Part shown: in pieces, positions 25,287 through 28,596 of the stretch
Position numbering within the stretch: position 1 is the stretch's first letter
Layout of the letters: every line of letters starts with the position of its first letter
Source: Desulfuromonas sp.
Lineage (GTDB): Bacteria; Desulfobacterota; Desulfuromonadia; Desulfuromonadales; Geopsychrobacteraceae
Assembly (NCBI GenBank): GCA_002868865.1
Contig: PKUC01000022.1
Coordinates: forward strand, 138,019-170,838
Direction: 5' to 3'
Length of the DNA: 32,820 nt
The notes under the pieces: generated by a model
Told to the model about the DNA's origin: nothing
The model's database searches: none
Seen by the model: only the letters and a program-made list of their open reading frames with translations
Program-made: the position numbers and the translations under genes

Positions 25287-25862
25287 ATGCAGCTGATCTG
25301 TCCCCACTGTCAGTTCAGCAGAGAGCTCGATCCGGACAGTATTCCAGCGACGGCAAAAACCGCCACCTGTCCGCGCTGTCAAGGTCGTTTTCCGCTATCT
25401 GTGCAAACCACCGGCATCGAGGACAATCCTTCCGCCGATCTCAGAGCCCACCCCAAAGCGGGGTTCTGGATCAGGGGTACAGCGATGACACTCGACGCGA
25501 TACTGGTCCTGACACTCCAGGCGATGTTGGGTGGGATGCTGTTTCTGGCCGGAATCCTCAACGGGTCCGGTGATGAAAACCTGGCTCTGCTGGTGCAGCT
25601 GTTCAGCTCCCTGCTCAGCCTCGTGTACTATATTTTTTTTACCGGATACTGTGGGCAGACTCCGGGGAAGATGGCGCTGCGCATCAAGGTGGTCCGCTGC
25701 GACGGATCGCCGCTGACCTACGGACGGGCGGCATTTCGCGAACTGCCGGCCAAATTCATCTCCGGAATTATCCTCGCGATCGGCTACCTGCTGGCGGCGT
25801 TTGACGACCAGAAGCAGGCCCTGCACGACCGTATGTCCGACACCTATGTCATCAAGCTATAA
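25287..25862 (+). CDS. RDD-family membrane protein with N-terminal zinc ribbon
   Basis: 191 residues. The N-terminus (1-37) is a zinc-ribbon of MJ0042 type with two CxxC pairs (CPHC and CPRC). The remainder is an RDD domain: a first membrane helix beginning with the conserved Arg/Asp (RGTAMTLDAIL), a second helix, the PGKMALRIKVV turn, a third helix, and the final conserved Asp region HDRMSDTYVI. RDD proteins are small membrane proteins, some implicated in ion transport; the function is not known here. It lies one base after argF and before argG, inside the arginine operon, an arrangement I recall in related genomes, so a role tied to arginine or ornithine movement is possible but unproven. 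Confidence 0.85.
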   Translation: MQLICPHCQFSRELDPDSIPATAKTATCPRCQGRFPLSVQTTGIEDNPSADLRAHPKAGFWIRGTAMTLDAILVLTLQAMLGGMLFLAGILNGSGDENLALLVQLFSSLLSLVYYIFFTGYCGQTPGKMALRIKVVRCDGSPLTYGRAAFRELPAKFISGIILAIGYLLAAFDDQKQALHDRMSDTYVIKL

Positions 25863-25908: not shown

Positions 25909-27123
25909 ATGAGCAGAAAAAATCAGGTCAAAAAAGCGGTCCTCGCCTATTCGGGCGGACTGGACACCTCTATCATCCTCAAATGGCTGGTGGAAGAATA
26001 CGGCTGCGAAGTGGTGGCCTTCTCGGCCGACCTCGGCCAGGGCGAAGAACTGGACCATATCCCCGAAAAAGCCAAAGCGACCGGTGCCTGTGCCTGCTAC
26101 ATCGAAGACCTGCGTGAAGAATTCGTCCGCGATTTTGTCTTCCCCATGTTCCGTGCTAACGCCATCTACGAGGGCCGCTACTTCCTCGGTACCAGCATCG
26201 CCCGGCCGCTGATCGCCAAAAAACAAATGGAGATCGCCGCAGCCGAGGGAGCAGACGCCGTCAGCCACGGTGCCACCGGCAAAGGTAACGACCAGGTGCG
26301 CTTCGAGCTCGGCTACTACCACTTCGACCCGGCAGTCAAGGTCATCGCCCCCTGGCGCGAGTGGGACCTCAACAGCCGCACCGCCCTGGAGGACTACGCC
26401 AAAAAGCACGGCATTCCGGTGCCGACCAGCAAGAAGAACCCCTGGAGCTCCGACCGCAACCTGCTGCACATCTCCTTTGAAGGGGACGTGCTCGAGGACC
26501 CCTGGGCAGAAGCACCGGAACACATGTACGTGCTTAGCGTCTCCCCTGAAGAAGCCCCCGACACCCCGGAATTCGTCGAAATCGAGTTCAAGAACGGTGA
26601 CCCGATCTCGGTTAACGGTGAAGCCCTCTCCCCCGCCAACCTGCTGGCCAAACTGAACGAACTGGGCGGCAAACACGGCATCGGCCGCATCGACCTGATG
26701 GAAAACCGCTACGTCGGCATGAAGAGCCGCGGCGTCTACGAGACCCCCGGCGGCACCATTTTAGAGGAGGCGCACCGCGGCGTCGAGTCGATCACCATGG
26801 ACCGCGAGGTCATGCACCTGCGCGACTCGCTAATCCCACGCTACGCCGAGATGGTCTACAACGGCTACTGGTTCGCTCCCGAGCGCGAGGCGCTGCAGGC
26901 GCTGATCGACGACACCCAGAAGACGGTCAACGGCAAAGCCCGCGTCAAGCTCTACAAAGGGCATTGCCGGGTGGTCGGTCGCCAAAGCGACACCGACAGC
27001 CTGTTCAACGTCGAGTTCGCCACCTTTGAAGCGGACGAGGTTTACAACCAGGCCGACGCCGAGGGCTTCATCAAGCTCAACGCCCTGCGCCTGCGCATCC
27101 GCAGCATGATGAACAAGAAATAG
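25909..27123 (+). CDS. argG: Argininosuccinate synthase
   Basis: 404 residues. Joins citrulline and aspartate using ATP. P-loop-like nucleotide motif [15 protein letters not shown] at about 13-27, [17 protein letters not shown], the [18 protein letters not shown] block and [19 protein letters not shown] near the end are diagnostic of the class-I bacterial enzyme. TTAGGAG lies upstream of the ATG. A 13-bp hairpin follows its stop, before argH. Confidence 0.97.
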
Positions 27124-27150
27124 ACGGTTTCAAGCCAACACCTGAGCCAA

Positions 27151-27194
27151 TTGCCGCAGATGACCGCGCGATCAACGGGGATCATCTGCGGCAA
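27151..27194. repeat. Perfect 13-bp inverted repeat between argG and argH
   Basis: TTGCCGCAGATGA (27151-27163) is exactly complementary to TCATCTGCGGCAA (27182-27194), with an 18-base loop. It begins 27 bases after the argG stop and ends 31 bases before the proposed argH start. What follows is AACATTTTGAC, not a proper T-run, so it is a poor intrinsic terminator. It may set the argG/argH expression ratio, protect the argG mRNA 3' end, or be part of a leader structure controlling argH. Confidence 0.8.
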
Positions 27195-27225
27195 ACATTT
27201 TGACTTTCATGAAATAGGACACACA

Positions 27226-28596
27226 ATTAGCAGCAAACTGTGGGGTGGCCGGTTCACCCAACCGACCGATAAGTTCGTTGAGGAATTTACCGCCTCTATC
27301 GAATTCGATCAGCGCCTCTACGCTTACGATATCCAGGGATCAAAAGCCCACGCCGAGATGCTCGGCCGTCAGGCGATCATCGGCACGGATGAAGCCGCAC
27401 AGATCATCGCCGGGCTGGATGAAATTCTCGCTGATATCGAAGCGGGCAAGGTCGAGTTCTCGGTAGCGCTGGAAGATATCCACATGAACGTCGAAGCGCG
27501 GTTGATCGAGCGGATCGGCAGCGTCGGCGGCAAACTGCACACCGGCCGCAGCCGTAACGATCAGGTCGCCGTCGATATCCGCCTTTACCTGCGCGACGAG
27601 ATCGACACCTGCCTCGACTACCTAGGCAAACTGGAAGCGGCGCTGATCAAGCAGGCTCAGGAAAATCTCGACGTCATCATGCCCGGCTACACCCACCTGC
27701 AGACCGCCCAGCCTGTACTCTACAGCCACCACATGCTCGCCTACCGGGAGATGATCGCCCGCGACATCAGTCGCCTGCAGGATCTGCGCACCCGCTTCAA
27801 TGTCATGCCGCTCGGTGCCGGCGCCCTGGCCGGAACCACCTTCCCCATCGACCGGGAGTGGGTCGCACAGCAGCTCGGCTTTGACGGGGTGACCCGCAAC
27901 AGCCTCGATTCGGTCTCCGACCGCGATTTCGCCATCGAGTTCTGCAGCGTCTCCAGCATCCTGATGATGCACCTCTCAAGACTCTCCGAGGAGCTGATCC
28001 TCTGGTCGAGTGCCGACTTCGACTTTATCGAACTGACCGATGCCTTCTGTACCGGCAGCTCGATCATGCCTCAGAAAAAGAACCCCGACGTTCCCGAACT
28101 GGTACGCGGCAAGACCGGTCGTGTCTACGGCAACCTGATGAGCATGCTGACCCTGATGAAGTCGCTGCCACTGGCCTACAACAAGGACATGCAGGAAGAC
28201 AAAGAACCGTTGTTCGACACCATCGACACGATCAAGGGTTCACTGAAGATCTTCGCCGACATGATCGCCGAAATGAACGTCAAAGGCGACAACATGCGCA
28301 TCGCCGCGGCGCGCGGCTTTTCCACCGCTACCGATGTCGCCGATTACTGCGTGCGTAAGGGGCTGCCATTCCGTCAGGCCCACGAGGTCGTCGGCAAAAC
28401 AGTGCGTTACTGCGTTGAAACCGGCAAGGATATTCCGGAGTTAACGCTGGCCGAGTTCAAGGAGTTCAGTGATCTGATCGAAGAGGACATCTACGACTAC
28501 GTCACCCTCGAAGCCTCGGTTAATGCCCGCAAAGCGACCGGAGGTACTGCCCGTGAAGCGGTCGAACGCGAGCTGTCCCGCCTGAAAGACGACTGA
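27226..28596 (+). CDS. argH: Argininosuccinate lyase, probable ATT start
   Basis: 456 residues. Splits argininosuccinate into arginine and fumarate, the last step of the pathway. Family blocks: [19 protein letters not shown] at the N-terminus, [22 protein letters not shown], and the fumarase/ASL signature [12 protein letters not shown] with S278/S279. ArgH proteins normally begin one to four residues before KLWGGRF. The only codon in that place with proper spacing from a ribosome binding site (AGGA, 27216-27219, 6 bases) is ATT at 27226. The nearest in-frame ATG (27160) lies inside a hairpin stem, has no ribosome binding site and would add 22 unrelated residues. A sequencing error (ATG read as ATT) is possible. 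Confidence 0.92.

Follow-up and report, generated by a model that had tools for sequence, protein, structure and literature searches.

ATT at the initiator position of an argininosuccinate lyase gene in a Desulfuromonas draft genome

Results

The window, the whole stretch of 32,820 nucleotides that we analysed in this Desulfuromonas sp., carries a run of arginine biosynthesis genes in the order argB, argD, argF, a short frame (25287-25862), argG and argH (Table 1). We identified argB, argD and argF by eye from the list of open reading frames, and argG and argH with NCBIfam profiles. Read from 27226, ArgH scores well above the TIGR00838 cut-off of 279.5 bits and covers positions 1-451 of the 455 in the profile. 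The short frame between argF and argG encodes 191 residues and looks, by eye, like an RDD-like membrane protein that begins with a zinc ribbon; the NCBIfam profiles gave no match to it. Elsewhere in the window, two adjacent similar genes at 32-1666 appear by eye to be of the SUMF1 / formylglycine-generating-enzyme type and are a probable tandem duplication. An Rfam scan of the window returned 0 matches at the gathering score.

Table 1. Coordinates of the window and of the features around the argH start
Feature	Position	Strand	Remarks
Analysed window	C68:138019-170838		Part of a 2.66-Mb draft genome in 109 contigs
argG (argininosuccinate synthase)	25909..27123	+	NF001770 628.8 bits, TIGR00032 484.8 bits; upstream of argH
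argG-argH hairpin	27151..27194	+	Perfect 13-bp arms 27151-27163 / 27182-27194 (predicted stem); contains TTG 27151 and ATG 27160
Weak Shine-Dalgarno AGGA	27216..27219	+	Spacer to ATT 6 nt; duplex energy -3.9 kcal/mol
ATT at argH initiator position	27226..27228	+	ATG in 59/59 readable relatives; predicted opening cost 5.0 kcal/mol
argH (argininosuccinate lyase)	27226..28596	+	TIGR00838 655.2 bits; frame otherwise intact

The argH frame is open from 27124, immediately 3' of the argG stop codon. Positions 27226-27240 read ATT AGC AGC AAA CTG and are followed by TGG GGT GGC CGG TTC, which encodes the WGGRF motif. Upstream of the ArgH homology, the only canonical in-frame starts (ATG, GTG or TTG) are the TTG at 27151 and the ATG at 27160. 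Both lie in an arm of the hairpin, and the sequence-only reading was correct in finding no such codon between the hairpin and the homology. We set aside CTG 27238 as a downstream start, 18 nt from AGGA, and ATG 27209, which is out of the argH frame. The argG stop codon (TAG, 27121-27123) is itself in the argH frame, 35 codons upstream of the ATT with no stop in between, so that read-through would fuse ArgG to ArgH; a shared frame has a one-in-three chance and is probably a coincidence. A promoter-like sequence, TTGACT-16-CACAAT (9/12), spans 27200-27227 and ends on the ATT. Two such sites occur in 601 bases, one per strand, against 0.3 expected, and this one may be due to chance.

We then compared the argH start among 66 relatives. 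The N-terminus was readable in 59 of them, 37 from this organism's family, including one from its genus, and 22 from its order. Of the other seven, two gave no match (G015, G050), two a fragment lacking the N-terminus (G019, G022) and three distant superfamily members only (G030, G036, G061). Every one of the 59 has an ATG four to six codons before W(G/A/Q)GRF, at a distance, with rows counted by eye, of five codons in 40, six in 12 and four in 7. Twelve loci that fell outside the N-terminal motif were read individually and counted; at two loci (L006, L008) the automatic finder gave a TTG beside the W, and an ATG 5 codons before the W is visible in both. Seven relatives (G021, G006, G013, G020, G027, G017 and G007) read ATG-AGC-AGC-AAA where the window reads ATT-AGC-AGC-AAA. 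The genus mate G001 has an N-terminus longer by one codon; there, GGA and 6 nt precede the ATG, compared with GGA and 6 nt before the ATT here (by eye). Given the placement of the relatives' ATG, the codons that follow it and the spacing in G001, the comparison identifies ATT as the ancestral argH initiator with one G>T change at its third base, private to this genome. The proposal that this ATT, 6 nt past AGGA, sits at the family's initiator place is thus borne out by the relatives. The same reading had asked for ATT to be looked for in related genomes, and there the answer was ATG in all 59 readable relatives.

A pattern search of 277 genomes of the class, this one included, for ATH (ATA, ATC or ATT) at five, four or six codons before the W found no second argH among the pattern matches that has such a codon and lacks ATG. 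The four- and six-codon patterns also demanded an (S/T)QPT-like continuation, and an argH that deviates from the patterns would escape them. The five-codon pattern returned 71 rows, 30 with a locus and 41 without. Among the 30, the window and three relatives (G014, G038, G058) are argH and the remaining 26 are not; the three relatives have ATG immediately after the ATH codon. We fetched 20 of the 41 rows without a locus and found 0 argH. The last 21 of the 71 rows were assessed on the printed match alone: 17 have Ser for the Arg of WGGRF, and the other four resemble the non-argH rows or contain a stop. The four-codon pattern gave one row (G008), in which ATG stands immediately before the ATH codon. 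The six-codon pattern gave 19 rows, 18 with ATG immediately after ATH; in the last (G207), an in-frame ATG lies 12 codons ahead of the W.

If ATT is not the start, the two upstream codons could serve instead and would add 22-25 residues to ArgH. The frame is indeed open upstream, as part of a 490-aa open frame, and some ArgH of other bacteria seem to have longer N-termini (nearest upstream start 19 codons before the W at L065 and 33 at L068). Of the 56 relatives that gave an ArgH match, however, 13 have open frames at least this long, so the open frame here carries little weight. The predicted fold of the RNA also speaks against these codons. RNA 27121-27265 has a predicted minimum free energy of -45.9 kcal/mol (z -2.83; 1 of 200 shuffles equally good), and the 13-bp stem is its main feature. 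The Shine-Dalgarno sequence and the AUU at 27226 are mostly unpaired in the predicted fold. Opening the ribosome site is predicted to cost 5.0 kcal/mol at ATT 27226, compared with 21.5 at TTG 27151 and 26.7 at ATG 27160; the Shine-Dalgarno energies are -3.9 kcal/mol at the ATT and -1.9 at each of the other two. By these energies 27226 is modelled as by far the best ribosome site and an upstream extension is unlikely. A usable canonical in-frame start is therefore probably absent, as the prediction buries both codons in the stem and gives them hardly any Shine-Dalgarno pairing; their earlier description as poor starts within the hairpin agrees with the prediction. Since all 59 readable relatives also start four to six codons before the W, we consider initiation at the TTG or ATG very unlikely, and an N-terminal extension was rejected as the main reading.

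The exact arm of the hairpin occurs only at this site in the genome, and we rejected the idea that it is an abundant repeat. Allowing up to 1 mismatch gives 22 hits, both of its arms among them, versus 3 for the reversed control. The inverted repeat has no clear T-tract, and we found no terminator-like site.

The Shine-Dalgarno sequence of argH is weak. At -3.9 kcal/mol it comes 50th when the 60 argH sites are ordered from the strongest down, below 49 of the 59 relatives. Ten relatives that start at ATG have a weaker one, including five of the seven that share AGC-AGC-AAA, so this weakness is not peculiar to the window. The genome's own infC, which encodes IF3, has a Shine-Dalgarno energy of -12.3 kcal/mol versus the -3.9 of argH. 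Its locus (C31:57407-57913) reads TGAGGAGGCAGACCC-ATA-GCT, with an apparent ATA start behind GAGGAGG. We searched 41 genomes, this one included, for infC, obtained a match in 39 and read the loci of 30; a regular expression caught 28 of the 30 starts, one (L167) was found by eye and one (L158) was read separately. In the family and order, the apparent start is ATA in 26 loci and ATC in 4, with none ATT or ATG. With an apparent ATA or ATC start at all 30 loci, autoregulation by IF3 is a plausible feature of this lineage.

These infC starts speak for an idea of the sequence-only reading, namely that an AUU start would tie arginine synthesis to IF3 levels. If true, a single base would put a biosynthetic enzyme under initiation-fidelity control in a lineage whose infC is already AUA. 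The argH codon, however, lacks both the codon conservation and the strong or extended Shine-Dalgarno sequence usual for IF3-regulated starts. ATT is found in no relative (59 of 59 readable ones have ATG), the class-wide pattern matches hold no other ATH-started argH, and 49 of 59 relatives have a stronger Shine-Dalgarno sequence at argH; those of infC, cvfC1, ccpN and sigR are strong. The proposed tie thus finds no backing in the relatives, and an evolved IF3-responsive start is highly improbable. The full chain in which argH really starts at AUU, is retained that way, and IF3 level consequently sets arginine synthesis is likewise very improbable. Were AUU the start, sensitivity to IF3 would come with it as a by-product; we see no case for a new control circuit.

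The argH gene is single copy, this protein having no other match in the genome at E <= 0.001. Compared with G014, dN is 0.05 and dS 0.73, giving a dN/dS of about 0.07. Across 36 ArgH sequences (35 relatives and this one), the ArgH here shows no change of its own at any column that is invariant in the rest, as is also the case for 12 of the other 35. The products of argB, argD, argF and argG align to their orthologs up to the C-terminus, within three residues, and argC is present in the genome. Two argJ-like genes (C95:33185-34243 and C78:14158-15333) both score above the cut-off of TIGR00120; a contig end truncates the one on C95. Because ArgH is single copy and constrained and argB, argD, argF, argG, argC and argJ are present, the organism probably needs it. 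The base could be right and argH only recently non-functional, with arginine taken up and the rest of the pathway still undecayed. Changing the argH start of E. coli from ATG to ATA is reported to give auxotrophy (PMC11782819), and the weak Shine-Dalgarno sequence points the same way. Against such a loss, we found no further lesion in argH, the products of the four neighbouring arg genes align up to the C-terminus, and argC and argJ are present. We regard it as unlikely.

As a control on the contig, we took 51 ORFs with an ortholog in the fetched stretches of G014 or G010, and kept 33 close pairs (identity of 60% or more, spanning 70% or more of the shorter frame), leaving out 18 looser ones. 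In 31 of the 33, a canonical start lies within three codons of a canonical start in the relative. One of the other two is argH; the second is a partial match within a 1002-aa ORF, for which the starts are not comparable. Some ortholog pairs on the contig differ in length. The start control, the column control and the dN/dS indicate that the assembly is not grossly bad and that argH is not an old pseudogene, and are compatible with a single miscalled base.

An error in the assembly at base 27228, or a minority or culture variant, would leave argH with an ordinary ATG start. The sequence-only reading had named a base error as the main rival, and rightly took it seriously: a difference of one base from the family's codon, private to one genome, is what a wrong base looks like. 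In addition, argH is otherwise constrained, the other arginine genes we looked for are present, the Shine-Dalgarno sequence shows no compensation, and loss of the argH start is reported to be harmful in E. coli (PMC11782819). On the other side, the contig shows no sign of poor assembly, with 31 of 33 close pairs keeping their start, and the columns invariant in the other ArgH sequences are unchanged here; both controls would reveal a gross error rate rather than one miscalled base. We lean towards the base at 27228 being real; even so, a wrong base is nearly as likely as weak initiation at AUU.

Discussion

The position of the ATT, the homology that follows it, its restriction to this genome and the weak Shine-Dalgarno sequence are all direct observations. 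Our leading reading, to which we give a probability of roughly 0.4, is a private change from ATG to ATT with weak AUU initiation at argH. The ancestral initiation site would be kept, and a G-to-T change at the third base of the initiator, private to this genome, would make it AUU. We think it most likely that the ATT arose recently and only here. With the base right, ribosomes would still start at 27226, since no other accessible site has a Shine-Dalgarno sequence at normal spacing. We infer that AUU is then used, at a small fraction of AUG efficiency, and that the ArgH level would be low. Sensitivity to IF3 would be incidental to the codon, not an evolved link.

AUU-started genes outside infC are known. 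E. coli pcnB reportedly starts at AUU and is translationally limited, as Binns and Masters are said to have tested by experiment in 2002. It resembles the window argH as an AUU-started gene outside infC; the argH start is deduced from sequence.

The infC gene of E. coli starts at AUU and is discriminated against by IF3, as reported in PMC5472188, and Xanthomonas infC is described as starting from ATT (PMC5559785). The initiator is the one proposed for argH, but the infC start is autoregulatory, whereas the argH codon is private and belongs to a biosynthetic enzyme; in this lineage, moreover, infC has ATA or ATC and the window argH has ATT. Of 34 Streptomyces species, 32 are reported to start sigR at GTC and 2 at GTT, and its ribosome binding site, AGGAGGTG, is conserved (PMC5472188). 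This gene likewise has a non-canonical start outside infC, but differs in its codons, its conserved AGGAGGTG and its regulatory role. In S. aureus, infC (AUA), cvfC1 (AUU) and ccpN (AUA) are described with extended Shine-Dalgarno motifs; in poor medium, the cvfC1, ccpN and citZ reporters reached about 10% of the output from AUG, and the rare starts of cvfC1 and ccpN are reported as conserved (PMC13009471). According to the same source, the AUA start of citZ, a core metabolic gene, is specific to the S. aureus NCTC 8325 lineage, so unconserved near-cognate starts do exist. This is probably the closest precedent for the argH ATT: both are lineage-specific near-cognate starts of a core metabolic enzyme, although citZ has AUA and was reporter-tested. 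Among 61,358 ancestral AUG starts in 36 prokaryote groups, one switch to AUU is reported (PMC5622118). We found no natural AUU-started argH among the titles and abstract openings listed for open-access papers on argH start codons or bacterial ATT starts.

A counterpoint to weak initiation comes from the argH of E. coli. Editing the E. coli argH start from ATG to ATA is reported to yield arginine auxotrophs of both a laboratory strain and Nissle 1917, with 41 to 303 off-target changes in the sequenced edited strains (PMC11782819). This is the same gene and the same third base of the start codon; the edit differs in being engineered, in giving AUA and in causing auxotrophy. By analogy with these auxotrophs, a near-cognate start may yield too little ArgH, and the Shine-Dalgarno sequence is weak with no sign of compensation. 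Judged by the ATA edit, AUU together with this weak Shine-Dalgarno sequence would cost the cell much of its ArgH.

What the ATT means depends on base 27228. If the base is wrong, this is an ordinary consensus error. If the base is right, nature has here made a change akin to the edit that turns E. coli into an arginine auxotroph, and a gene finder restricted to ATG, GTG and TTG would misplace the argH start. The ATT would then reveal either that the need for ArgH is small in this organism or that organisms other than E. coli make better use of near-cognate starts.
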